Assembly: GCA_014904845.1 (NCBI GenBank) | Contig: MU119341.1 | Span: forward strand, 62,001-126,000 | From: Acephala macrosclerotiorum | Taxonomy: Eukaryota; Ascomycota; Leotiomycetes; Helotiales; Mollisiaceae | Direction: 5' to 3' | Length of the DNA stretch: 64,000 bases | In this document: piece after piece, positions 25,769 to 62,642 of the stretch | How the letters are laid out: every line of letters starts with the position of its first letter | Position numbering within the stretch: the first letter of the stretch is position 1 | Notes under the pieces: model-generated | Databases searched by the model: none | Seen by the model: only the letters and a program-made list of their open reading frames with translations | What the model was told of the DNA's origin: nothing | Position numbers and translations under genes: made by a program

Positions 25769-25770
25769 TA

Positions 25771-25818
25771 ACGTCCATCCCTGCGTGCCGAAAAACCCTA
25801 TGTGCCGAAAAAATTTCA
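25771..25818 (+). repeat. Left terminal inverted repeat
   Basis: Starts ACGTCCATCCCTGCGTGCC directly after a TA. It contains two tandem GTGCCGAAAA words (25785-25794 and 25802-25811). Confidence 0.7.
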
Positions 25819-26918
25819 TGGTTTAAGGGTCTTAAATCTCCACCATGTAAATATATAAAGTAATAATCAGTTTGCTATTGTTCTTTAGCTATTTCTCTAC
25901 AAGGACCCGGATTGTAGTAAGAAATACCACGGTTGTAGTAATTCTGTCAATCGTCCCGTCGACGGCGTTGAAAGCCGCTTTAGCTACTCTCCCCTGCTCT
26001 ATCATGACTACCGGCCCGTTTCCGAGCTTCGGGACCACGGTACAAAAGTTCTATTAAGAAATAATATAACTCCAAGCTTTGAAGACTTTAAGCACAAGGA
26101 AACCTGTATGCCGAGTTTATCCGGAACAAAGGGGGAGGTACACAAAATGCTAAGCGAATTTATTACATAATGCCGTATCAACAGTCACGCTCGTCGTATT
26201 ATTTTGTACATTATACCGAATTTATATAAGTGTGGCGTTCTTCTAGAAACTTCCATGAGCAGCCAACCCGCCTACTTTCGCCCTGCCTTGAGCGACCGCG
26301 TCGTGAAGCCCTTGCAGAGGCGTTTCTGTTGGGAGTACTACGTACAGGCCCTTTTAATTGTTAAAACGTCGCCACCCAGATTACCCAATTACAGACCAAA
26401 AAAAGAAGATCTAGACAGGTGATTGGGCAGACCATCGGAATCTCGACTGGATTTGGACGTATTTTCTCTCGCTTAGCAATTAAAAGGCCCTATAGGTAGT
26501 ATAGCGACTATCGAGTATCGGCACACACGTTTCCTAGGCATCATACCACCGAATCAGATAAATATAGCCATATTTAGCCTCCTTGATATATCACCCACTT
26601 TTGCATTTGTGCAGCCGCGTATCTACATACTAATGTACGTTCTTCCTCACCACAAGATGCGCCTCAATGATAGAAAGATATGCATGGCTCTCTCGAAATA
26701 GTCCAGACAGCCGCCATGATCTTCTGCAGTGGCTAGCCGCGATCGGCTGGTCTGGCGCTCGTAGTGATAATGCGCAACCACGCCATGCCACGAGGCTGTC
26801 GTCCAGCTGAGCCGTACGAGCACAACCTCGACCCAGCCTGTACTCCTACACAAATGTCGACCCTGCGAGAACTATTCACCGACATTCTTTCGTTCAGCTC
26901 TCAGATCCCGTCTGAATC

Positions 26919-29900
26919 ATGCGCCTACTACAATACGACAACGATGGCGAGTTTAGCCTGACCAAAGACTTTGTTGGCGGCGAGATTCTCGAATATGCTA
27001 TCCTTTCGTACACATGGGGGGCGGATACAGAGGAGGTCACATATAGAGACCTAATAGATGGCATTGGGAAGAACAAGGTTGGATACGAGAAGATTCGGTT
27101 CTGCGGAGAACAAGCCAAACGTGATGGCTTGTACAACTTCTGGATTGATACGTGTTGCATCGACAAATCCAACAATAACGAGCTCGCAGAAGCTATTAAC
27201 TCTATGTTTCGATGGTACCATAATGCGACAAAATGTTACGTCTATCTGCCAGATGTTTCGTCGCCTGGCATCGATATCGGCGACAAGTCTGATCAGCTAC
27301 CATGGGAAATAGCATTCCGAACAAGCAGATGGTTTACGCGAGGCTGGACCCTTCAGGAGCTCATTGCTCCGACATCAGTGGAGTTCTTCTCTAAGAATCG
27401 AAAGCTTCTAGGTGACAAAAGATCCCTAGAGCGACATATCTGCGAGATAACAAGAATTCCCAGCATAGCTCTTCGAGGAGGTTCTTTAGCTGAGCTCAGC
27501 GTAACCGAACGAATGTCATGGGCAAAAACTCGTCAAACTACTCGCGAAGAAGACATGGCGTACTCGTTACTGGGCATTTTTGACGTATACATGCCGCTTA
27601 TCTATGGCGAAGGGAGAGCGAATGCAGTAGGGCGGCTCCAAGAGGCGATTGATAGGAAGGGGAAAGGTATGCTGTTCTCATTATCAAGATCGAGATTACG
27701 CTATACGAAGGTTATTGACTTGGATAGGGATCAAACACGAGAATTTTTCGATCTCGTTTAGTCTCTCTGCGGTCTCTGACATCGAACATTTCGTGGTAAG
27801 AGAGGATGAGCTCGAAAAGATACATAAGGCACTGAGCGGCGACGGCTCTCGGCGTACCGTGGTTCTTTATGGTCTGGGCGGAATTGGCAAGACACAGTTG
27901 GCTGTTGCGTACGCGAAGCGGCATAAGGACAATTTCTCGGCGATATTCTGGCTCAATATCAAGGATGAAGACTCTTTGAAGCAAAGCTTTACCAAGGTGG
28001 CAAGGCAGATATTACGAGAATACCCTTCGGCCCGCTGACTCAGTAACGTTAACATGAAAAACCCCGACGAAGTTGTTGATACTGTCAAGGCGTGGCAAGG
28101 CTTGCCATATAACACGCGATGATTGATGATATACGATAATTACGACAATCCAAGGCTAGTAAGCAATAAAGATCCCGCAGCAGTGGATATGACGAAATTT
28201 CTTCCCGAAGCATATCAGGGCTCCGTGCTTGTAACTACACGGTCGTCGGAAGTTGACATTGGCCATCTTATACAAATTACAAAGCTAGAGGATGCACGTG
28301 ACAGTCTCGAGATTTTGTCAAATACGTCGCGCAAGAAGGGACTCATAGATGGTGAGCACTATTATACGCAATAATAGTAGTATTAATATTTGCACTAAAT
28401 GCGGATACCGCAAAACTTGCCAAAAAATTAAACGAGCACTTTCTTGCTCTAGCAACAGTTGGAGCATATCTCAAACAAGCGGCAATAGGTTTCTCAGATT
28501 ATCTTTGCTTATACGAGAAATCATGGGCCAAACTTCAGAAGACGAGTCCTATATTAAACTCGTACGAAGACTGAACGCTTTATTCTACATGGCAGATCTC
28601 ATTTGAGCATATTGAACGACGAAATATACTCTCGGCTCAATTTCTTCGATTGTAGACATACTTCGATAATTAGAATCTTTGATTTGAGCTGTTTCAGCAT
28701 AGCGACTTCGAATACCCAGACTGGATACAAGAGCTTATTAAAGATAAATTAAGCTTTCACGGAGCAATGCGAGTACTTAGTGACCACGAGCTCGTCGAAG
28801 TAAATAAGCCATCGCTAGAACTACTCGAATCACAAGAGTATAGTATTCATGGGTGCGTTCACTCGTAGACGGTTCACGTTTTGAACTAAGAATGGAACTA
28901 CGATCTTGCTAAGGTAGCAGTGAACTCTGTCGCATTACATGTCCCAGGAGAGCAAGCTATTCGATCGTAGCTGACGCAACGACGGCTTCTCCAGCATGCA
29001 GCCAGATGTTCTTATATGATGCTAAACGGCTTGACTTTAGATGATAGCATGACATAGGCATACTACAACCTCGGGCTCCTCTACTTTGACCAAAGCAAGC
29101 TCGCCTTGACCGAGCAAATGTACGAGCGAGCGCTGCGAGAGAAAGAGAAAGCGCTCGGTGCAGAGCACACGTCGACGCTCGATTTAGTCCACAATCTAGG
29201 GATTCTCTACGCTGACCAGGGCAAGCTCGTATTGACCGAGCAAATATACGAGCGGGCGCTGCGAGGCTACGAGAAGGCGCTCGGTGCAAAGCACACGTCG
29301 ACGCTCCGCACAGTCCACAATCTAGGGATTCTCTACGCTGACCAGGGCAAGCTCGCCTTGGCCGAGCAAATGTACGAGCGGGCGCTGCGAGGAAGAGAGA
29401 AGACGCTCGGTGCAGAGCACACGTCGACGCTCCGCACAGTCCACTGCTTAGAGATCCTTTATAAGGACCAGGACAAGCTCGCCTTAGCCGAGCAAATGTA
29501 CGAGCGGGCGCTGCGAGAGAGAGAGAAGGCGCTCGGTGCAGAGCACACGTCGACGCTCCGCACAGTCCACAATCTAGGGAATCTCTACACTGACCAGGGC
29601 AAGCTCGCCTTGGCCGAGCAGATGTACGAGCGGGCGCTGCGAGGCTACGAAACGGCGCTTGGTGCAGATAATATCACAACTTATATCCCTGCGCTTAACA
29701 CACTGTGGGGTCTCGGCTCTCTCTTCAAACGTCAAACTGATTTCACAAAGGCTAGAATTATGTATTTGAAGGCACTTGCAGGATATGAGAAAGTTTTCGG
29801 ACCCGATCATCTCATGTGTCAAAGTTTACAGGAAATTCTTCAGGATTTAGATACTGTAACAGAAGGAGAGGCTGTAAAAAGCAGAAAAGAGCTAGCGAGC

Positions 29901-29993
29901 GATCCTCAAGGGAATGTATCACGTTTAGATTCTAAAGGAGCTACATCGACATCAAGACGACACAAGCTATTTAGAAAGCTTGGGTTGAGGTAG
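26919..29993 (+). pseudogene. HET-domain / NB-ARC / TPR protein (fungal NLR), decayed
   Basis: NLR-type signalling proteins of this architecture act in heterokaryon incompatibility and programmed cell death in fungi. HET domain at 26919-27665: ILSYTWGADTEEVTY, FWIDTCCIDK, INSMFRWYHNATKCYVYL, FTRGWTLQELIAP, RMSWAKTRQTTREEDMAYSLLGIFDVYMPLIYGEG, all intact. NB-ARC from ~27780: P-loop VVLYGLGGIGKTQ, then IFWLNIKDE, LMIYDNYDNP (Walker B-like) and GSVLVTTRS. A helical linker follows, then five 42-residue TPR units (29079-29708) and a basic tail. The HET-to-NB-ARC join needs an intron or carries a frame lesion. In-frame stops lie at 28036, 28120, 28573 and about six further sites up to 29055. Most replace Trp (TGG) or Gln/Arg codons by a single transition. 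The TPR part (29106-29993) is open. Confidence 0.85.
29079..29708 (+). repeat. Five 126-bp tandem repeats encoding TPR units
   Basis: Unit starts at 29079, 29205, 29331, 29457 and 29583, exactly 126 bp (42 codons) apart. The core is LAEQMYERALRGYEKALG, AEHTSTLRTVHNLG and LYADQGK (kinesin-light-chain-type TPR). The units are nearly identical at DNA level, and only the last half of unit 5 diverges. Confidence 0.9.
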
Positions 29994-30666
29994 GTAGGTA
30001 CTTGATAGTTGGCTTCGCTTTTAATATAATATTTCTTCTCTTCTCTATTTCATAGAGGGTCAAGGAGAGCATTTGCCTTTATAGTGCTCTAGTATTGCCA
30101 CTGGACTCCTAGCATCTTCTATAACAGCGTAGCGTGTATTGGGGAGGCCTTAGACGTTGGCGCTGACCTGGTGTTCGCTCGCTGTCAGGCACGGCCGCGC
30201 ATGGTGCAGTTTGGCCTCGCGTCAGCCACGTCTTAAACAGCCACAAGCTTGGCAACTGATTACATAACGTGGAATTACGTCGCACTAGTCGTAATTATTA
30301 TGGGACGTGCGGGGTCGTTTTACGCTGTACCGACACGCGTGGCAACCTTACATAAATTTGCGTGCCATAGCAGCCACAAGGGTAATCGCGATTTCTAATA
30401 CGATAGTAAGGCCTTAGAGCTCGCATACAACCATTTTATAAGTATTAGGAGTAATAGGAGCTTGATAGTGGAGCTGTGGTGAGGGAACTTTATTACGTTA
30501 TAAAAAGGCACTCTCTATAAATCAGGCGCGAGGGCGACGACGCGAACGTAAATTTCTGGTGGGAGGGGTTCAGAGTGTCTAGGGATGGCCATAGAACACG
30601 ACTTATATAAAAATATCGGAGACATCTACGTGTACACAGATTTTGAGATGCTTAACGTCAAAGTAC

Positions 30667-30714
30667 CTATCATTTTTTTCGGCGCGGTGGTTTTCGGCAC
30701 GCAGGGATAGACGT
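30667..30714 (-). repeat. Right terminal inverted repeat
   Basis: Read on the minus strand it begins ACGTCTATCCCTGCGTGCC directly inside a TA (30715-30716) and mirrors the left end at 25771, including the second CGCCGAAAAAAA word. Confidence 0.7.
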
Positions 30715-30716
30715 TA

Positions 30717-46744: not shown

Positions 46745-47697
46745 TCAACACTCCTCAATCTCAAAATGTCCGTTAAACCACCGAATACACTGATCCTCCG
46801 CCGCCGTAGCCTGCTTCGCCACCTCCTCAAACCTGATATCTGCCCGCACACAGAATCCATGACTACATTCCGGATACAATACGACCTCTCCCCTCTGTTC
46901 TGTAGGTTTTGACTCTACTATGCCTTTGATCTTTTTTGCAACTTCGAGTGGGAGATGCGAATCCTGATCCCCGATAGCGAATGAGACTGGTATCTTCATC
47001 TTCTCGATATCACCTGGCACTCTCAGCAAACTTGGATGTCCTGTGAACCCGGCATCGATGAGGAGTTTTCCATTCACACGAGTTGGGTCGGCAGCAAGGA
47101 GAGCAACGTGTTTTCCGCCCCAACAGAAACCTGCTGCTCCGATCGGAAGACCGCCTCCTTCGTTTTGGCGGAGGTTGGTAAGGAAGATTTTGATTTTGGG
47201 GTAGGTGGCGGAAATGCGGTTTACTGTGAGCCAGAATATCCAGAAAATAATCAAAGGTAAGCTAAGGCTGGATGTGTTTGTGAGTTCTGGACCTCTGGTA
47301 GGGTGAGTTTTTAGTTTGGAGGCGTACATTTTAGCATACCAGCTCCCGCTTTCACTAGTTCTGACTGATTCAAGCATCCATGCTGGCGCCGACCATCCTG
47401 GGGATACTTTAGTCTTGCTTCCAAGCTCAACAAAGCGTCTTGAGGAAGGGACTACGAACCTCTCATGAAGTCGGGAAGATAGACTCGATAATCTCCCTTG
47501 TCGGCATAGTGATCTGCCAAAAGTCGATTGTTGACGAATACCCAGCCAAGAGCATCGGGAATGATGACGATGATGGCTTTGATAGCTCGTCCGTCTGCAG
47601 GTTCACTCACGTACGTGTCTAAACCATGTACCTTAGTGACTGTACCGCGAGGTTGGCCCTCATGGATAGTGCCTTGCAAGCATTCTAGGCAAGACAT
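46745..47697 (-). CDS. Dienelactone hydrolase family protein
   Basis: Alpha/beta hydrolase of the dienelactone hydrolase group; in fungi the substrate is usually unknown. Exons 47460-47697 and 46745-47397, 296 aa. The 62-nt phase-1 intron (AGAG|GTTCGT...CCCCAG) joins LPDFMRGWSAPAW. Visible: IVIIPDALGWVFVNNRLLADHYA, the nucleophile elbow GAAGFCWGGKH (Cys in place of Ser, as is typical), the acid IGDQDSHLP and the base ECSHGFCVR, so the Cys-Asp-His triad is complete. The middle has a hydrophobic insertion (LSLPLIIFWIFWLTVNRI), as in other fungal members. The CPXC-like start MSCLECLQG is also typical for fungal members. Confidence 0.9.
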
Positions 47698-48194
47698 ATT
47701 AAATCTTGGGAGTATCCCAACTTATGGAAATTTCGAAGACAAGAGGAATGACAAGAAGATAGCAGAAAAGTTTGAAAATCAGTCCTGACTTCAATTAAAG
47801 GGAACAGTGATTGCAGTTCGTATAGGCGAGGCTGACGGTTACACTGCAAGGTAGGAAGGTGAGCTGACGGACGTCCGACGAAGCGAATAAGGGGGACGCA
47901 AATACGACGTGGGGTTGGCGTGGTGGTGAAGATAGTGGTTAAGCGAGGATATACCCAACAGTCGTAAATGCAGGCCAAGCTTTTTTCCGTGCTTTCGAGG
48001 TATATTTTCTCGTTGTACATACGCATGAATCATCGAAGCTAACCACCTGTCGTATTTCCTAGATTACAATGAATTGATATCAAGTCATCAAGCTCGTGCT
48101 GCAAACTACTGATCAGATGAAATCGGTCGGCATTTAGGGAAACTTGCACAAAAATGTATTCCTTTTTCCATATAATCTGAAGTAAACACCTTTC
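47698..48194. other. Intergenic stretch, nothing recognised
   Basis: About 500 bp between the dienelactone hydrolase start and the 3' end of the MOSC-reductase gene. It presumably holds the hydrolase promoter. No motif stands out. Confidence 0.5.
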
Positions 48195-50078
48195 TTATAG
48201 ATCCAAAACAATCTTTCCAATACCTCTCGACACACAACTAAGCATGTACCCCTCCTTTTCATCGTCCAGTAATCCAGTCCCTCTGTGCTCAACTCTCCCA
48301 CTTCGGACTCCTACCCTGCACGTCCCACAATTTCCAACCTCGCATGAACTTTCAACGTCAAATCCAGCATCTCGGAGTATATCTAGGAGAGTCTCCTCCT
48401 CTTTCACCTCTAAGGTCTTCTCTGATTTCTCGAGCTCGACTGAGAATGGATCTCCGGATGTCGATGCGGTGAATGCCTCGAAATGGACGTTCGACTGAGG
48501 GAGGTTGAGGGATGTTGCGGCCGATTTAACCGCCTCGAGGAGCCGTTCTGGTCCACATACGTAGATGTGCGTCCGGGAATCTGCTTTTCCTAGGACTTCT
48601 AGCACATTCAACCTCTGTCCTTTCGATCCATTTAGGACCTTGACATTGTTTCCGAAACTCTCCAGCTGACTTGAGAATGCGACATCCTCTGAAGAGCGTA
48701 CTGCGTACAGTAACTTGTACTTGATATTGCGCTGCTTCATGGAATATGCGCTGGCAAGAAAAGCTGTGATACCAATACCTCCTGCTATCAGAATATGGTT
48801 ATCCGCATCTTCTTCCAGCGGGAAGTCCGATTTCATCTCGCTGAATGGTAGGACGTCCCCAACTTTGACTTTCTCATGCAGATATTTCGAACCTCCACGA
48901 GATTCTGGTTCTAGCGCTATACCGAGCTCGAACCGATTGCTGTTCCCTCCAACCACCGAGTACGCTCGGACAAGCTTTCCATCTCCGCCTAGCTTGACAC
49001 GAATGTGTGATCCTGGTTGAACTTTCGTACTTTGTTCACTTAAAGTGACTGCCTCGAAGACGAACGAGGATATCCTCGGCGTCTCTCTCTTCTTCTCGAC
49101 CAGTCGACAAGGATTCCATCTCAGCACATTCTCCTCTCCTCCAATCAACCTGTCGTTATCTTCCCTGAAGTACCCTCTTTGCAGCCTGCCTAGAAATATC
49201 TCTCTGGTCTCTTCTCCAAGCTCAGGCATGTAGGAAAGCTCCTTCATCACCTCCACATTCTTCCTGTCTTTATAGAGAAATTTCTGGATGCTGATGAGTG
49301 TCCATTGAGGATGCGGTCTTTCAATCAATACCATCTCATCACCAGCTTCGATGTACCCCTCTTTCAAAACTCGGTAATACCAGCCAGTCTTTCTGGCATC
49401 TTGACTACGCTTGCTCATATCTTTTACTTGGAAACGATGATTGAGTTTGAAACACGGTGCTCTGGGTTCAGAGACCTGGATCTGAACATCCTTCCCAAGC
49501 CGGTAAATATCGCCAATGCAAACATTCTCCTCGCTCATGCTCTCATTCTGTGTGACGATGTTCTCGCCGAATCCTCCTTTCACAAACAGATGCGCACTTT
49601 GAGGCAGCTCTTTTTGCCAAAAAGGATAATGCTGAGACGCATACTGCATGATTGCCTTTTCAGGACTTTGGTGGGGTATGAAAGCACGTTCATCGCCTTC
49701 GAGACCGATGGTGTTGACTTTGACGGCTTGCGAGTGTGGTGTTTTGAAAATTCCGGATTGAGTTGAAAGCCCATAAAAGGGTTTGACCTTTCCGGTGCGG
49801 ACTTGGAGGATTGTGTCAACATATCGAGGAAGGGAGAGGGGATCTTGGCTCACTGACCACGAACCCATCGCGACGATCACTTTCTTGGTCAACCAATTGT
49901 ACAGCGAGGAATAGAAGCTCTGGATTGATAGATGCTTGAAAGAGAAGTGAGATGTTTGCAGCTGGAAATTTGAAGGTTGAAGAGAAAACTTGGAGGATTG
50001 CAGCCTGGAGATATGGGACCGACTTAGATGGGGTATTACAGGCAAAAGCTGTGGTGTGGGTGTAAAGTGTGTGTTCAT
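48195..50078 (-). CDS. MOSC domain fused to a flavin/NAD and 2Fe-2S reductase
   Basis: A single-exon 627-codon frame. Order: N-terminal Ser/Arg/His-rich leader without acidic residues (1-70), a YiiM-type MOSC domain (~85-280: GLEGDERAFIPHQSPEKAIMQY, FVKGGFGENIV, SEPRAPCFKLNHRF), a 3-alpha helical segment, a ferredoxin-NADP reductase-like FAD domain (RAYSVVGG), an NAD-binding domain (LIAGGIGITAFLA, YVCGPERLL) and a C-terminal plant-type 2Fe-2S ferredoxin (CEVGNCGTC ... LSC). It is a complete electron chain feeding a molybdenum-cofactor or sulfur-binding MOSC site, likely reducing N-hydroxylated or other xenobiotic substrates (inference). A TATATATA box at 50113-50120 is only ~35 nt from the first ATG, so translation may begin at Met71 (49868), dropping the leader. 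Otherwise the leader could be a mitochondrial presequence. Confidence 0.93.
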   Translation of the reverse strand: MNTHFTPTPQLLPVIPHLSRSHISRLQSSKFSLQPSNFQLQTSHFSFKHLSIQSFYSSLYNWLTKKVIVAMGSWSVSQDPLSLPRYVDTILQVRTGKVKPFYGLSTQSGIFKTPHSQAVKVNTIGLEGDERAFIPHQSPEKAIMQYASQHYPFWQKELPQSAHLFVKGGFGENIVTQNESMSEENVCIGDIYRLGKDVQIQVSEPRAPCFKLNHRFQVKDMSKRSQDARKTGWYYRVLKEGYIEAGDEMVLIERPHPQWTLISIQKFLYKDRKNVEVMKELSYMPELGEETREIFLGRLQRGYFREDNDRLIGGEENVLRWNPCRLVEKKRETPRISSFVFEAVTLSEQSTKVQPGSHIRVKLGGDGKLVRAYSVVGGNSNRFELGIALEPESRGGSKYLHEKVKVGDVLPFSEMKSDFPLEEDADNHILIAGGIGITAFLASAYSMKQRNIKYKLLYAVRSSEDVAFSSQLESFGNNVKVLNGSKGQRLNVLEVLGKADSRTHIYVCGPERLLEAVKSAATSLNLPQSNVHFEAFTASTSGDPFSVELEKSEKTLEVKEEETLLDILRDAGFDVESSCEVGNCGTCRVGVRSGRVEHRGTGLLDDEKEGYMLSCVSRGIGKIVLDL

Positions 50079-55173: not shown

Positions 55174-57204
55174 ATGGCCAGGATACCAGCAACCAAGCGG
55201 CGGAAGCTGACGCCTCCAAGGACCGATGGAGAAGACTCCTCGCCCTCAACCCTTGAGCGCGAACCCGAAACCAGTGCATTTTTCCAGCAAGCTTCAAGCT
55301 GGAATCTAGAACAGGACTACGAGACAAGACCTCGAAAGGGAAGAAAGAAGGAAAAGGAGAGCACACGATTACCGATTAAGACTGCAGAGGGATTGATCCA
55401 GCAGGCCGAGGCGCCAGAGGATGCCGCAGACAGTGATCTAGAATGGCTTGGGGCGGAGGGGTCTGGGGAGGAGGAAGTGAAGGAGGAAATACCGAAGGAG
55501 CCCACTATTCCAGTCAAACAGCAGATCCTGGAAGCACAAGAAGAGATGGCTCGGATAGCCTTGATGCTCACGCAAGAGGATCCGGAAGAACATGTCGGCG
55601 CTTTCAAAGTCCTTGCAAATTTCGGACAATCACATAATGCCACAATCAAGAAGTTGGCATTGAGGGTTCAGTTAGCAGTCTACAAAGATGTCATTCCAGG
55701 ATACCGAATACGACCGCTCTCCGAGGAAGATATGGAGACCAAAGTGTCAAAGGATGTGCGAAGACTACGAGCATACGAGCAGGCTTTGGTTGGAGGATAT
55801 CAAGGATACGTTCGTGCATTAGCAAAGCTGGCGCAGACTCCCAGCAGATGGTCCAAGGGTGGAGGTCCTAGTCTGGCCAATATCGCCATATCCTGCGCGT
55901 GTACTCTTCTAGTTGAAGTTCCTCACTTCAACTTCCGCAGTGATTTGTTGAAGATTCTGGTTGGGAAACTGAGCACTCGGAGAGTGGACAATGATTTTGT
56001 TAAATGTCGAGAAACGATCGAGACCTTGTTCCGGGATGACGACGACGGAACACCTTCCTTGGATGCTGTGTCGATACTCACAAAGATGATGAAGGGCAAA
56101 GGATACCGGGTTGACGAGAGCGTGTTGAATACTTTCCTACATCTACGATTACTGTCAGAGTTCTCTTGGAAAGCCTCAACGAATTACATCGAAAAGCCGA
56201 AGGATGGTGATAACTTTGGCGGGAAGAATCTCAAGGAAAAGAGGGTATTCCGGACGAAGAAGGAAAGGAAGCTGATGAAGGAGAGAAAGGTTATTGAGAA
56301 AGAGATGAAGGCAGCAGATGCCACTGTCAGTCACGAGGACCGAGACCGAATGCAGTCCGAAACGCTGAAACTCGTCTTCGTGACGTACTTCCGTATTCTG
56401 AAGATGCGCTCGCCGAATCTGATGAGTGCTGTCCTGGAAGGTCTGGCTCGATACGCACATCTCATCAACCAAGATTTCTTCGGAGACTTGCTCGAGGCGT
56501 TGAAAGACCTCATTGGCCAGGCCGAGACGGGTGATGATGTGGAAGAGGGCGAAGAGGAAGACGAACAGACTACCAGAAATTTGACTCGAGAAGCACTTCT
56601 TTGCATCATCACCGCATTTGCTTTGCTTGAAGGCCAGGATGCTGCGAGAGCTCAATCAACACTCAGTCTCGACCTGAGTTTCTTCATTACGCACTTATAC
56701 CGCACTCTCTACGCTCTGTCGCTCAATGCAGACATCGAGCTCAGTGCCAAGTCGCTTCATCTTCCGGATCCTAACGGCCCATCACCGGCGCAATCAGCCA
56801 CCACGAACAAGATCAACGTGCAAACGACCACCGTCCTCCTTCTCAAGTCTCTCACCTCAATCCTCACCCCAACCCTTGGAGCCCGCGCCGTCCCGCCGCT
56901 ACGAATTGCAGCGTTCACCAAGCAGCTCCTCACATCATCGCTTCACTTACCAGAAAAGTCATGCATAGCGATGACCGGGCTTTTGGACAAAGTAACCAAG
57001 ACTCACGAAAAGAAGATTGCTTCACTTTGGAACACCGAAGAGAGAAGAGGAGATGGAACTTTTGATGCACTTGGTCAGGAGGTTGAGGGTAGCAATCCAT
57101 TTGCTGCGACCGTGTGGGAAGGGGAGCTGCTGAGAAAGCATTTTTCTCCTGCTGTCAGAGATGGTGTCAAGACCATGGAGAAAAATGTTCTGGGTTTGAG
57201 ATAA
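55174..57204 (+). CDS. NOC3: Nucleolar complex-associated protein 3
   Basis: Pre-60S assembly factor that partners Noc2 and is also linked to replication licensing. Single exon, 676 aa. Basic N-terminus with a likely nuclear signal (ATKRRKLTPP, KGRKKEKEST). The NOC3p domain follows: RIALMLTQEDPEEHVGAFKVLANFG, LAVYKDVIPGYRIRPLSEEDMETKVSKDVRRLRAYEQALV. A HEAT-like helical region comes next (ISCACTLLVEVPHFNFRSDLLKILV), then a charged hinge (KKERKLMKERKVIEKEM), and the CBF/Mak21 domain (VFVTYFRILKM, SAVLEGLARYAHLINQDFFGDLLEAL), with an acidic loop VEEGEEEDEQ and a conserved end (NPFAATVWEGELLRKHFSP). Intact and of normal length. Confidence 0.95.
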   Translation: MARIPATKRRKLTPPRTDGEDSSPSTLEREPETSAFFQQASSWNLEQDYETRPRKGRKKEKESTRLPIKTAEGLIQQAEAPEDAADSDLEWLGAEGSGEEEVKEEIPKEPTIPVKQQILEAQEEMARIALMLTQEDPEEHVGAFKVLANFGQSHNATIKKLALRVQLAVYKDVIPGYRIRPLSEEDMETKVSKDVRRLRAYEQALVGGYQGYVRALAKLAQTPSRWSKGGGPSLANIAISCACTLLVEVPHFNFRSDLLKILVGKLSTRRVDNDFVKCRETIETLFRDDDDGTPSLDAVSILTKMMKGKGYRVDESVLNTFLHLRLLSEFSWKASTNYIEKPKDGDNFGGKNLKEKRVFRTKKERKLMKERKVIEKEMKAADATVSHEDRDRMQSETLKLVFVTYFRILKMRSPNLMSAVLEGLARYAHLINQDFFGDLLEALKDLIGQAETGDDVEEGEEEDEQTTRNLTREALLCIITAFALLEGQDAARAQSTLSLDLSFFITHLYRTLYALSLNADIELSAKSLHLPDPNGPSPAQSATTNKINVQTTTVLLLKSLTSILTPTLGARAVPPLRIAAFTKQLLTSSLHLPEKSCIAMTGLLDKVTKTHEKKIASLWNTEERRGDGTFDALGQEVEGSNPFAATVWEGELLRKHFSPAVRDGVKTMEKNVLGLR

Positions 57205-57887: not shown

Positions 57888-58928
57888 GGTGTCGCGTGAA
57901 GCGCGTGAGCGCGTCCTTCTCCTTTTCCTCGATCCAACTCTCTTGGGTCGAAAGCTAAAGGTTTGTTCCTTGCGCTTGATGACTCCAGAAAGTCATAGAA
58001 GTATAATTTATAAGGCTGAAGGAAGAACACGGATTTTAAGAAACGTTGTTGTCCCCATCCCTCAATTGCATTTGATTGTCTCAAAATCAGCACGCAAATC
58101 AAAGTTTGGTGGCACATGATCCTTGTTGGTGATCGTGTTCAGCCTTGGCGGTGTAATTATCTAATTTCTGCGCGACGACAGCTTGTCTGCCTTGTAACAT
58201 TGTACTCGAAATACCTCAGCCCTCGTTCAAGAGAATAGAAGAAATTCCAGTAGTCTTTGGGCAAGCTACTTACAACAGGTAGATGTGACAAATCGAAGGC
58301 CTGCAAGGGTTCGCTTAATTCAGGGACGTCCTCTGCTACTAACAACGCGTCTCACGCGGGAAAAGAAAGCTTGATCTGTTTCCTCTTGTAGAAAGAATCC
58401 GTCTTATGCAGTTCTCCCTGGTCAGCGAGTGCGAACCGAGTGTTCAATGAAGATTTGTGTCGTTTCAGAACACTGGCGATCGATCTTTTTTGGATCCTCT
58501 TACTTGCCTAATCCGGAAAGTGGGGTACGATGGCGTACGCAGAGAAACCGCGAGCCTGGTGCATGTCTAACAGCGCCTGCGAGTCACTCCGTATATATAG
58601 TTGCATTGTGCAACCACTTGTGCTCACTTTGTTCCTCCCTCTTAAAACATTTTCCTCGCTCATGATTAAGTGTCGCCGAACGAAGAAACGTCCCTGTCAG
58701 CGAACAAAAATAATTAATTTATTGATACAGAGCAATTTTCACTTATCCATAAGTGTATCAATCTAATTTACTACTTCTACGGTTTTATATACATAATGCG
58801 GCTTTATTATATATTGTGATAAGGTTAATTAGTCGCAGTCTGAATATATCCTCATCAGAGAGATCCCTGAATCCGATTCTTTCAGCACAGTTATCGCTCT
58901 CAAACCTTCTTCAATTCAGATTGCCCCT
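57888..58928. other. Gene-free stretch, increasingly AT-rich
   Basis: About 1 kb without a supported gene. A TATATATAG word lies near 58591. AT-rich patches at 58700-58860 continue around the truncated hydrolase copy that follows. Confidence 0.5.
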
Positions 58929-59380
58929 TTACATCTTCAGCGCTTTAAACTTTTCCGTAGCATCTACTAGCGCCTCCTTAATCTTGTTCTCATGTGCACT
59001 ATGCCCACAATCTGCTATAACCAAATACTCTACATTCGAATTCTCCTTCCCTCCAAGTGCCTGATACAAATCCCAACTCGTCTTTGCCGGACAAACAATA
59101 TCATATCTGCCCTGCACAATAAATATCGGTAAATGCTTAATTTTATATGCCTCTTCAATCAATTGCCCATCGCGCATCCACCCAGCGTTGAGAAAGAAGT
59201 GGCACTCAATGCGAGCGAACGCAAGCACCCATTTTGGATTCTCTGCCTGACTTCGCGAAATATTGAAAGCCGAAATCAGATAATCAGTAGATGGATCTAT
59301 CCCATTGAACGCTTTACAACTCAATAACTCTTTGGATAAATTAATTAACGACCATTCATATATAAATTAGCGTAACTGTT
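58929..59380 (-). pseudogene. Proline iminopeptidase (alpha/beta hydrolase), C-terminal fragment
   Basis: Prolyl aminopeptidases of the S33 family are ~310 aa; only the last ~140 remain here, ending in a normal stop at 58929. Retained: LAFARIECHFFLNAGWMRDGQLIEE, the segment LPIFIVQGRYDIVCPAKTSWDLYQALGG that carries the catalytic Asp, and CGHSAHE with the catalytic His. The N-terminal half, including the nucleophile Ser (GGSWGS motif), is absent. Upstream of about 59380 the sequence turns AT-rich with no related frame. It is therefore a truncated copy left in a decayed region; the MITE starts 205 bp upstream. Confidence 0.75.
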
Positions 59381-59585
59381 CTAAGTAATTTGTTACTCTA
59401 TATTCATAAAGATGCCGTTGAGATATATTTCAGCATCATAGAAAATGGACGTTAAAAAACTAGCTAAACATAGATTGGAACCATTTAATCAATTTACAGG
59501 ATGAAACGAGGCCTCTTGGCGTATATGAGATCGTAGAAGTATCCGATTAGACCAAAGCACTAGAATACAAGAAAATTGTTTTGTG

Positions 59586-59845
59586 TTACTCTCCCCCCCC
59601 CTAAATAAATGTAATTATGGGGCAACCCCTAGTAACGAAAGATCTCAGTGGCTATGCGCCCTGGTTGCCTCAAAGCACAGGTCAAAAACTGGTCGGATCT
59701 GAGCACAGGGTACCTAGAGAAGGTTCAAAAGGTCTGCTGGGCCCTTCAATATAGTGATTTTTACTGGCCCAGTGCCCCAGTATCCTACCCGCAACGTACC
59801 CGCAAAGTACCCACAATTACATTTATTTAGGGGGGGGGAGAGTAA
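59586..59845. mobile_element. 260-bp MITE with perfect terminal inverted repeats and TA flanks
   Basis: Both outer arms are exact inverted copies of about 31 bp: TTACTCTC, nine C, then TAAATAAATGTAATT at 59586, and the complement ending at 59845 (nine G, then AGAGTAA). Counting TA as target duplication, the element proper starts CTCTCC, a Tc1/mariner- or Stowaway-type MITE. The core (GCGCCCTGG...CAGTGCCCC) has no coding capacity. Perfect arms suggest recent insertion. Confidence 0.85.
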
Positions 59846-59948
59846 GGTATTAATTTTTTTTTATCGGAGTGACAAGGGTCACGCTTCGGTTTACAGGGAT
59901 TTTCGCTTTCCAGGACGTCTCTTACAAAGTAAGACAACTTGTGCAATA

Positions 59949-60784
59949 ATGGGGTCGATATCTACGAAACCCCCACCAACGAAAGTGGTGCTTATACCAT
60001 GGGATCCCGATTCCCCGGAACATGTGGAAAGAATGGTCCAGCAGCGGATTGCGTGTGGGTGGAATGCATCGCGCGTACCAGAATGGCAAATACGACAGCG
60101 CCAAGGGAGGAAGAATTTGCAATGGGTGGTATGTAGGTCTCCTTCACTTTTCACGCATTGGTTTAGAACTGATGTTACTAGGTCATTGACGAGTCTGAAC
60201 CAAACCGGCAAGAGCATCTTTCAAGGCATATCATAGCCTTTCCGAAACAAACCATCGCATTGGTGGACACTGCATCGTCCCTCGGTGGGAAACCTCGACA
60301 ACCGGATTTGGGTCCGTCGTTCATTCCCGTGGGTCACATATCACTGGACATCGAATACGAGAACCCGGAATTCAATGAACCCACTCCAGGAACCTTCTTC
60401 ATATGTGCATTCTGGATCTCGGACGCTCTGCAAGGTTCTGGCTTAGGCCGAGCTGCGATGGATATCGTGGAGGCAACAGCGATTTCAGAACCTCTGTGTG
60501 CCAAAAGACTGGCATTAAGTACTTCAAATAAGGATGATCCTAATAGAGCCGAGAGGTTCGCTGCTTTGAAGTGGCCTATACCAAAGGCACGGCGTAATCC
60601 GTTTCCTCGACAGATGAGTTGCTAACGTGGAAAGGTAACGAATCAAGAATGGTACGGGAGAAGAGGATATGAAGTTTATAGAAAGGTTGATCAGATGTGG
60701 AGTACGGACGATGAGACAGGCAAGACGTGGTGGACTCCTGGTGTGTTTATGAGGAAGGATATTGCAGTCAAAGCCACTGAATGA
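59949..60784 (+). CDS. GNAT-family N-acetyltransferase
   Basis: Acetyl-CoA-dependent transferase, substrate unknown. Exons 59949-60128, 60182-60586 and 60635-60784, 244 aa. Intron 1 is GTG|GTATGT...TTACTAG. Intron 2 (48 nt) is best read as GC-AG: CCAAAG|GCACGG...GCTAACGTGGAAAG, with a perfect branch point; it joins WPIPK to VTNQEWYGRRGYEVYRKVD. Without splicing the frame ends early at 60625. GNAT features: VGHISLDIEY (beta4), FFICAFWISDALQGSGLGRAAMDIVE (acetyl-CoA loop with GSGLGRAAM), RLALST, NQEWYGRRGYEVY. N-terminal MGSISTKPPPTKVVLIPWDPDSPEHVERM is typical of fungal members. The MITE lies about 100 bp upstream and may affect the promoter. Confidence 0.85.
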
Positions 60785-60933
60785 CTTAGGCTACTATTTG
60801 GAGGTATTCACAAATAGAAATGATGGAAATCGGAAATCGGATTAACTCATTCGTGTAGAACGATGATTGGGTTTTGGATTCGAACTACGAGGAGATGAAT
60901 TGCTGCAGGCAAGTCTATCTTGCCTGGACCCGT

Positions 60934-62642
60934 TCACATCGATCCTCGTTGGCGGTAAAGTTCATCGATCTCGCTGGCATACTCCTCTACCGTGGCTCGC
61001 CTATTGACTGTTCCTTTCCCTGCTACCCGCTTGATCGGCTTCACTCTCTTTGCGAGCATGATCATCTCCTTTTCAACACTAATCATGCTAGACATATTGC
61101 TGTTGATCGATTCAACCAAGGCCAGATCCTTTCCTTCTCAGCCTCAGCCTCATCCTCTATCTCCTCGTCCATTTCTACGATTAAGAAAGGCACTTCTCGT
61201 CCATCACCGCCCATAAGACACGCTTTCGCACTGGGATCCTTCATGAACAACCCTTCTACATGCGTAGCGTTGAATTTCGTCAAGCTGCTCAATTTAACAA
61301 AATCGTCCGTCCGTCCGTCCACAATATAGCCACAGCCCCTTCTTCCCAGGATCAGTATTCTCCCTCCACACATCTTTCGTCCGATAGACATCCAGGTTCG
61401 GGAAGACATGGAAGATGATCTGTGTGCGTGCTTCTTCTGGATCCCTGTGACACACAATCACGGATTCGAAAAGGTCGTCTTGGAATGGCCAGAACTGAAA
61501 CCCAGTGGAAGGGTCGAAGTTGTACCACATTCAATCCTCTTTTGCAGTTCCTCGGAGTCCATAAGATCCTACTTCCGTGCCCCCCATGATGGTTTGCAAT
61601 TTTACATTAGGAAATGTTGTGAGGATGTCTCCAGTTTTGTGGTGTAATAGTGCACCACCCCAACTGATGGCCCTCATGTGTCGCATGTGCTCGAGGTACG
61701 TTAGATTTTCAGCAGGTCCTTTCAAGACAAATGGGACGTAGACTCCAGCATCAGCTTGGGTTTGGACATGCAGAGCGTCCATGTATGGTGCTGTCATGGG
61801 CATAGGCGAATCGGATGGAAGAAGAATGGGTATGACGCCAGACTCGATTGGCATGTTTACATGGAAGAAGATTCCTAGGATCCAGGATGGCGGGAGTGGG
61901 ATGCCAGTTTTGAGTGAAGAGAACATTGTATGTAGAAAGCCAGTGTTGAGCAAACTCGTCGTGTAGGATGTGAACCTAACTGGTTTTGGAAGACCTTTCT
62001 CATATGAGGACTTGAGTTTCGTAGTTCGCGCCTGCTGCTGTGGACTACTCACCTGTCGCCCCGGAAGTGTGCATGATGAGTATTGGTCCATCTTTGATTT
62101 CATCCCATGTTCTAGTGTAGGGATAATGGTCCGCAGGCTCTTTAGCCGCAAAGTATTTGAACGGCGGCATTTTTAAGAATGCGAAGTCGTCGGCTTCGGG
62201 CCGAAGAGTATCCCACGTTGAGATCTCTTCTGATGCGTCTAAGATTCTGCACCTAGTATTCTCCAAAAGATTGAGTTGCGCTTGTTTGGTGTTTTGATCC
62301 AGAGGAAACAAGATCTGTTAAACCACATAAGCAATTGTTGTTTTTAAGGATCAGATGGTAGACCTGTCGTTGAGTCTTAAGGGCAGCGAAGTAGAGGAAA
62401 GCGTAACGAAGGTCGTTTCTACCAATGTAGGCCACGACGTCGAAGCTCGAAGCCTTCCCCAATTTTTGATCTGGCCACCACGACATCCTGTCCACTGCCT
62501 TTGCGAGCTGTGCGTAAGTGAAGGAGACATATCCATCGGCAAGTTTCATCGATCTTGGAGTGGTAGCATAAGGCCTATCTGGCGTGCCTCGAGCTCGTTC
62601 ATCCACCCAGATAGCATATGGTTTCCTTTCCTTGATAAACAT
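60934..62642 (-). pseudogene. Adenylate-forming (NRPS-like) enzyme, decayed
   Basis: AMP-binding enzyme of the fungal NRPS-like group; only the adenylation region is visible. Readable parts, joined by two good introns (CAG|GTCTAC...TTTAACAG and ACAG|GTGAGT...GAGAAAG): YAIWVDERARGTPDRPYATTPRS, FTYAQLAKAVDRMSWW, the P-loop MHTSGATGLPKPVRF, SLLNTGFLHTM, IMGGTEVGSYG, FVKLSSLTKFNATHVEGL and the tail KRVAGKGTVNRRATVEEYASEIDELY. Lesions: an in-frame TGA at 61531-61533 between KED and MWYNFDP; an extra GGAC unit in a (GGAC)4 run at about 61307-61322 that shifts the frame within CGRTDD; and a one-base loss before LVESINSN near 61120. The C-terminal thiolation/reductase domains expected in longer relatives are not visible. 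Confidence 0.8.

Follow-up and report, generated by a model that had tools for sequence, protein, structure and literature searches.

A probable non-autonomous pogo/Fot-type transposon enclosing a decayed NOD-like receptor gene in Acephala macrosclerotiorum

We report that a 4,944 bp stretch, positions 25771 to 30714 of a 64,000 bp window of Acephala macrosclerotiorum DNA (the window being the whole stretch that was analysed), has inverted ends with a TA on either side and encloses a gene for a HET/NB-ARC/TPR receptor of the NOD-like receptor (NLR) type. This stretch very probably belongs, as a non-autonomous element, to a DNA transposon family of the pogo/Fot type, one that acquired NLR genes on more than one occasion, since the HET domains carried by its elements are of different lineages, which are found in other fungi too. 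It belongs to a known kind, the gene-carrying non-autonomous DNA transposons, of which it is a variant. The genome analysed (G000) comprises 69.66 Mb in 778 contigs; the window corresponds to C140:62001-126000, and other loci are named by contig number.

The left end of the element (25769-25794) reads TA followed by ACGTCCATCCCTGCGTGCCGAAAA, and the right end, given as its reverse complement, reads TA followed by ACGTCTATCCCTGCGTGCCGAAAA with the outer edge at 30716. Its terminal inverted repeats (TIRs) were identified by a repeat search and a genome-wide end pattern; their outer 24 bp, at 25771-25794 (forward strand) and 30691-30714 (reverse strand), differ by one mismatch. A preceding sequence-only reading, which had proposed near-identical inverted ends with TA flanks, is thereby borne out with its coordinates exact. 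The repeat search gave an arm of 31 nt (90%), the two ends match each other over approximately 45 bp, and a second copy of a 17-bp motif is located at 25796-25812, just inward of the left TIR. Each TIR opens a conserved subterminal region of approximately 390 bp: the left ("L") region at 25771-26158 on the forward strand is 77-78% identical to the L ends of C95 and C227:44324, and the right ("R") region at 30326-30714 on the reverse strand is 67-78% identical to the R ends whose alignment covers most of its length. The TA is read beside both ends, at 25769-25770 and 30715-30716, and its duplication as target site was demonstrated on a nested sister copy.

Ends of this type recur across the genome. 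The 26-base end pattern (at most three mismatches) matched 35 places in 69.66 Mb and the same pattern read backwards matched none, which excludes a chance inverted repeat. A 19-base pattern with two mismatches gave 38 matches, and since its control gave 18 we did not use the additional matches as evidence. Seven end pieces, joined for one search, had 40 matches in the genome, and this subterminal search agrees with the pattern matches that other copies with the same outer ends exist. Inward of the TIR each end continues for approximately 390 bp as one of the two distinct sequences, L or R, with 67-78% identity among the copies that align over most of this length. Facing ends at most 8 kb apart were found at 13 places, nine by the strict pattern (C140, C95, C227:44324-47096, C227:57974-61805, C115, C48:203029-209366, C141:65977-73177 and two short pairs) and four by subterminal similarity (C31, C370, C302 and C423, for which one outer edge or both were extrapolated manually). 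Six pairs combine L with R in either order, so that left and right ends co-occur not only in C140 but also in C95, C227:44324-47096, C115, C31 and C370; three are R...R pairs (C227:57974-61805, C302 and C423). The two short pairs, C141:40293-40527 and C329:38748-38934, are miniature inverted-repeat transposable elements (MITEs) built from the same ends, and there are apparently solo ends as well. Mutual comparison of 15 outer flanks (400 bp each) gave two matches of 20-25 bases and no more, which indicates that the insertion sites compared are unrelated.

Movement of an NLR-bearing member as one unit is seen on C227. The 3.83-kb element C227:57974-61805 sits within the L end of another member, which it breaks at a TA, and this TA is duplicated. 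Joined with a single TA, the flanks align to positions 1-156 of the window element at 135 of 156 positions and free of gaps, i.e. the empty site is restored, which shows that the TA was duplicated and that what inserted was precisely the DNA from one family end to the other. The sequence-only reading had proposed a look for empty sites with one TA, and for this sister element such a site is thus available. Its cargo is one uninterrupted NLR reading frame (58773-61127) that gives 784 amino acids from the first methionine, with HET and NACHT (NPHP3_N) domains. We also noted a C-terminal pair of zinc-finger-like repeats in this protein (CPHxxC / CPVKGCQ-H-H), for which Pfam returned zf-Nse alone, weak and under the cut-off, and no recognised repeat family; they matched none of 360 proteins retrieved for other purposes, no database search having been aimed at them alone. 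The surrounding region, C227:40500-70000, is a hot spot with six family ends, the nested insertion and two more HET genes (47177-49189 and 55213-56889) in 30 kb.

The interior of the window element contains a cell-death-type NLR gene, as had been read from the sequence, with HET (E=2.6e-13), NB-ARC (2.5e-7; overlapped by AAA_16, 5.6e-8), TPR_12 (3e-50) and TPR_10 (2e-47) found by Pfam. On the forward strand, a HET-domain exon of 249 amino acids at 26919-27666 (open reading frame (ORF) list and Pfam) is followed by a proposed 61-bp intron at 27667-27727, GT...AG and with a phase that fits the NB-ARC frame, and by the NB-ARC and TPR part at 27728-29990, delimited by ORFs, Pfam and frame translation. 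Within this part, Pfam places the NB-ARC domain, with the P-loop GLGGIGKTQ, at 27799-28017, and a TPR array of 126-bp repeats (repeat search and Pfam) is located at 29065-29694. Given the one 61-bp intron, the HET/NB-ARC and NB-ARC/TPR frames contain ten in-frame stops and change frame; a second intron could explain the frame change, never the stops. Hence, of the features that mark a fungal HET-NLR, the HET, NB-ARC/NACHT and repeat domains are present and an intact reading frame is absent: the window NLR is a pseudogene. In agreement with the earlier description of an interior free of transposase, none was found among the seven ORFs scanned with Pfam, and C140 had no match in a genome-wide search for DDE_1, the one transposase family searched for on this contig in that way.

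Non-transposon genes are enclosed between family ends at other loci too. Among 11 end pairs longer than 1 kb, the content of nine is known at least partly, by sequence or genome match (C115 and C423 are outside these nine). HET genes lie within the pairs C140, C227:57974 and C370, the last with weak NACHT and WD40 remnants behind the HET and a dead NLR copy. C95 contains a NACHT remnant next to an unknown 302-aa ORF, C227:44324 a 535-aa ORF that is membrane-like by eye and had no Pfam match, and C31 a hydrolase together with a fragment of a Tc1-type (Tc3/DDE_3) transposase, part of this locus reading N. One-sided HET loci were also found. At C48:167k, HET, NACHT and WD40 ORFs are present, HET and NACHT sharing one frame with a stop between them and WD40 being in another frame, and a same-family transposase fragment lies between these ORFs and the R end. 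The remaining ones are C525 (stops in HET), C194 and C54 (many stops; a 98-bp subterminal match only).

A candidate source of transposase is found between matching ends. The DDE_1 profile had 81 genome matches, one of which is inside the pair C141:65977-73177, in a 613-aa frame without stop, and one inside the pair C48:203029-209366, in a 707-aa frame without stop; the C48 protein, known from a genome match, is 85% identical to that of C141, and the ends of the C48 pair and of the left side of C141 were recognised by pattern only. These two are candidates for the autonomous element with matching ends and a DDE transposase that the sequence-only reading had suggested looking for, and the position of the C141 transposase suggests that it may act on the family ends. 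Same-family transposase loci with 54-85% identity to the C141 protein are C48, C194, C247, C2, C282, C48:169k and C66, in addition to small fragments; nearly all remaining DDE_1 loci are at most 32% identical, with a few short fragments in between. Residues D166, D277 and D313 are invariant in all eight aligned transposases and 35 residues separate the last two, i.e. DD35D, which was read in one of the two enclosed transposases; one homologue bears the source name "transposase tan1". Of the Tc1/mariner relation that had been deduced from the TA flanks, the flanks stand, and Tc1/mariner in the strict sense does not, the transposase being of pogo/Fot type (DDE_1, DD35D). A Tc1 (DDE_3) transposase as mobilising enzyme was considered and rejected: one Tc3/DDE_3 fragment is present in the C31 element, but the transposases enclosed by matching ends, in C141 and C48, are DDE_1 proteins (no genome-wide search was made for DDE_3). 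A sequence search of the PDB with the transposase gave no match, nor did scans of viral contigs with the transposase and the end pattern.

HET genes related to that of the window are associated with family ends. For this analysis, 84 match rows were collapsed by hand to 73 window-like HET loci. Five of these loci are on the inner side of one of the 35 strict ends at a distance of up to 8 kb, where 0.29 would be expected (P=1.4e-5), and one is on the outer side. With 13 ends added, 12 of them placed by the subterminal search, the inward number is eight of 73 (0.40 expected). Likewise, a window-like HET is present within 12 kb of five of ten same-family transposase loci (0.25 expected; two of the loci share one HET), versus two of 55 other DDE_1 loci (1.38 expected). 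As a separate observation, a PF06985 HET match at C111:10029-10472 lies 2.1 kb to the inner side of an end with three mismatches (C111:7941, forward strand) and is absent from the list of the window's HET subfamily.

To place the element-borne HETs, a tree of 67 domains was computed with three of them (window, C227 and C48) and 32 + 32 from two 120-protein lists, a sample drawn by similarity to C227 and the window only, with the C194, C525 and C370 HETs and the non-element HETs of the genome left out. The window HET joins P0250, P0256 and P0260 (Shimodaira-Hasegawa-like approximate likelihood ratio test, 97), proteins of three other fungi to which its BLAST identity is 85-87%; the C227 HET falls within a HET-NACHT set and is 92% identical to P0001, a metagenome protein; and the C48 HET is placed elsewhere with weak support. 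A single clade of the three was rejected by the approximately unbiased test (p=2e-7, quick tree). That they are not one clade argues for several captures and against a single one followed by spread. Repeated capture is the simplest reading of these sequences; capture followed by horizontal movement may be an alternative course. As to a donor in the same genome, the best full-length HET among the matches listed is 69% identical to the window HET and NLR DNA reaches 70-72%, so that no donor of the Pack type was found; the closest HET piece, among the same matches, is a 63-aa fragment in C242 (89%), and the 535-aa cargo ORF has relatives of 36-38% only. We also observed that P0256 of Phialocephala subalpina (Leotiomycetes), whose HET is 86% identical to that of the window, and P0260 of a Geoglossum metagenome-assembled genome (Geoglossomycetes), both HET-NB-ARC-TPR proteins, are 88.5% identical over 881 amino acids. 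This likeness is a possible, uncalibrated lead for horizontal movement, and contamination of the metagenome-assembled genome could also cause it.

We propose the following course of events. A transposase from copies such as C141:65977-73177 or C48:203029-209366 would bind the family ends, cut the element out and insert it at a TA, moving whatever lies between the ends. NLR genes would have been acquired on more than one occasion, probably when a host gene lying between two ends was caught up in recombination between them or in faulty repair, and RIP-like mutation (RIP, repeat-induced point mutation) and decay would inactivate copies after insertion, the window copy being a decayed NLR carrier. 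As a default, the carried NLRs can be regarded as passenger cargo that is sometimes kept by selection. The sequence-only reading had suggested capture and possible spread of an incompatibility or immune receptor by a cut-and-paste transposon; our data support the capture, and not the spread of this particular NLR, as other elements carry other NLRs; the copy carried here is a pseudogene.

It is improbable that an HET-NLR was instead taken up once, in an ancient capture, and that its copies then swapped their middle and C-terminal domains with the HET end kept beside the transposon end. Such a history would fit the position of the HET start, 0.8-1.15 kb inward of the end in five loci (1147 bp in C140, 990 in C194, 967 in C525, 877 in C370 and 796, i.e. 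58770 minus 57974, in C227), the HETs of which are all in one similarity list, and the collinearity of L end and HET between the window and C370, where similarity does not extend into the flank. It is at odds with the rejection of a single clade, with a window HET that is closer to proteins of three other fungi than to any full-length HET listed from its own genome, with the 92% identity of the C227 HET to a metagenome protein, and with a HET that adjoins the L end in C140 and C370 but the R end in C227. We hold it for somewhat less improbable, if still unlikely, that the NLRs are the point, i.e. that the family spreads or persists through an allorecognition or immune advantage, or by disfavouring cells without the element. 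NLR-type cargo in five of the nine paired elements with known content (C140, C227:57974, C370, the weak case C302 and the NACHT remnant of C95) and the uninterrupted 784-aa frame would agree with this; against it, the 535-aa ORF and the hydrolase are other cargo, and the NLR copies of the window and C370 are dead.

Solo ends or MITEs inserted independently beside ordinary host NLR genes could mimic a composite element, and short two-ended MITEs and apparently solo ends do exist in a genome where HET genes are very common. In addition, a finding that the sequence-only reading had named as counting against capture, NLRs without the TIRs or ends with unrelated partners, was made in part: C603, C130, C161, C186 and other NLR relatives have no family end found nearby, and there are R...R pairs and apparently solo ends, the remaining checks being mostly favourable. 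Yet two different sequences of approximately 390 bp face inward here in the correct order and recur elsewhere as pairs with other cargo between them, the nested 3.83-kb NLR element was inserted as a single unit, and the stretch from L end to HET is collinear with that of C370, all of which makes independent insertion highly improbable.

Several points weigh against the view that 25771-30714 belongs to a transposon family that takes up NLR genes. The restored empty site is that of a sister copy on C227 and not of the window insertion itself. The HET assignment of C302 depends on a weak match (29%, E=1.5e-4) in a 1126-aa frame, and the 600 bases read there have one open frame and no Pfam match. 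The HET-bearing loci C48, C525, C194 and C54 have one end found only, and subterminal similarity, with no strict pattern match, is the basis for the ends of C302, C423, C54 and C370 and for one side of C31. For most of the 73 HET relatives no family end was found at a distance of up to 8 kb. The genome is very rich in HET genes (620 first-look candidates, of which the best 150 were scored). Among the best 150 PF06985 matches, three are inward of an end where 0.60 would be expected (P=0.02), and two of these three are on the crowded C227 and at the same time outward of further ends; the enrichment, strong in the 73-locus set and weak in the broad set, is thus mainly one of the window's HET subfamily. 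Since the 8-kb and 12-kb limits were chosen after some loci had been seen and loci cluster, the P values are guides. Finally, ends differ by 22-33% between copies, which indicates an old family whose present-day activity is unproven.

With RIP index thresholds such as 1.03, the window element gives a mixed RIP signal: TpA/ApT is 0.99 versus 0.61-0.66 in the flanks, and (CpA+TpG)/(ApC+GpT) is 1.06, below the 1.26-1.32 of the flanks and not under 1.03. RIP may be the cause of the decay. In stretches of C370 and C204 the GC content is 16% and 19%, and the signature is strongly RIP-like, with both indices within the RIP range. Nested in the window element is a MITE of approximately 167 bp at 26336-26501, found by repeat search and genome matches, with TACTAC...-type inverted ends at 26336-26364 and 26473-26501 and at least 34 other near-full-length genome matches of 85-98% identity (a lower bound, as 40 of 91 candidates were scored); this identity between copies suggests a family probably younger than the host element.

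The NLR repertoires of fungi are large and patchy, and they change fast. We suggest tentatively, and with more doubt than belief, that the pogo/Fot family is a recurrent vehicle that loads HET-NLRs of different lineages and spreads them as small cut-and-paste units, possibly between fungal species. If so, NLR repertoires and incompatibility loci would turn over partly through ordinary DNA transposition. A small TIR/TA transposon that carries NLRs singly would offer a route for NLR duplication, movement and loss that is simpler than the giant Starships and can be tested. For the repeat library of P. subalpina, HET-domain sequences are reported to have been taken out as not belonging to transposable elements (PMC5148876), and standard annotation could therefore miss elements of this kind. 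A literature search of titles and abstract openings, with preprints and most subscription papers outside its coverage, gave nothing on NLR/HET genes within pogo/Fot or Tc1/mariner elements.

With the Fot and Fot-like elements of the pogo superfamily (Fot1, Tan1, Pot2 and Flipper) the family shares a DDE_1 transposase with DD35D, the TA target duplication and ends that match each other over approximately 45 bp. In a survey, DD35D is given for almost all Fot/Fot-like elements and TA duplications for 54 of 385 Fot elements, in the minority clades FotC and FotD (PMC7386202). The stretches that hold a transposase here, 6.3 and 7.2 kb, partly read and possibly with nested insertions, are above the 1.2-5.2 kb reported there (PMC7386202), and other copies carry host-type genes; the placement is at pogo/Fot level and not by Fot clade. 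A non-autonomous TIR element around a captured gene and RIP-like inactivation are in common with Pack-type or transduplicating elements such as the hAT with a captured histone H3 in Pseudocercospora and relatives (PMC6710886). That element is described with one housekeeping gene in hundreds of copies (PMC6710886), in contrast to the pogo/Fot ends, several NLRs and other cargo found here, and unlike for the Pack type no near-identical donor gene was found in the same genome. Starships, giant tyrosine-recombinase elements, have likewise been reported with NLR/HET genes as cargo (PMC9594970, PMC12134995); here the carriers are instead TIR/TA elements of 3-7 kb with a DDE transposase, and no tyrosine recombinase (DUF3435 captain) was among the Pfam-scanned ORFs, no dedicated search having been made. 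Finally, the window cargo has the same domain order, HET-NB-ARC-TPR, as one type of fungal HET-NLR, the other being HET-NACHT-WD40 of the HET-E/D/R type; C48 has neighbouring HET, NACHT and WD40 ORFs, C370 weak remnants, and C227 HET-NACHT with zinc-finger-like repeats. What sets these genes apart from known fungal HET-NLRs is their location inside transposon ends.

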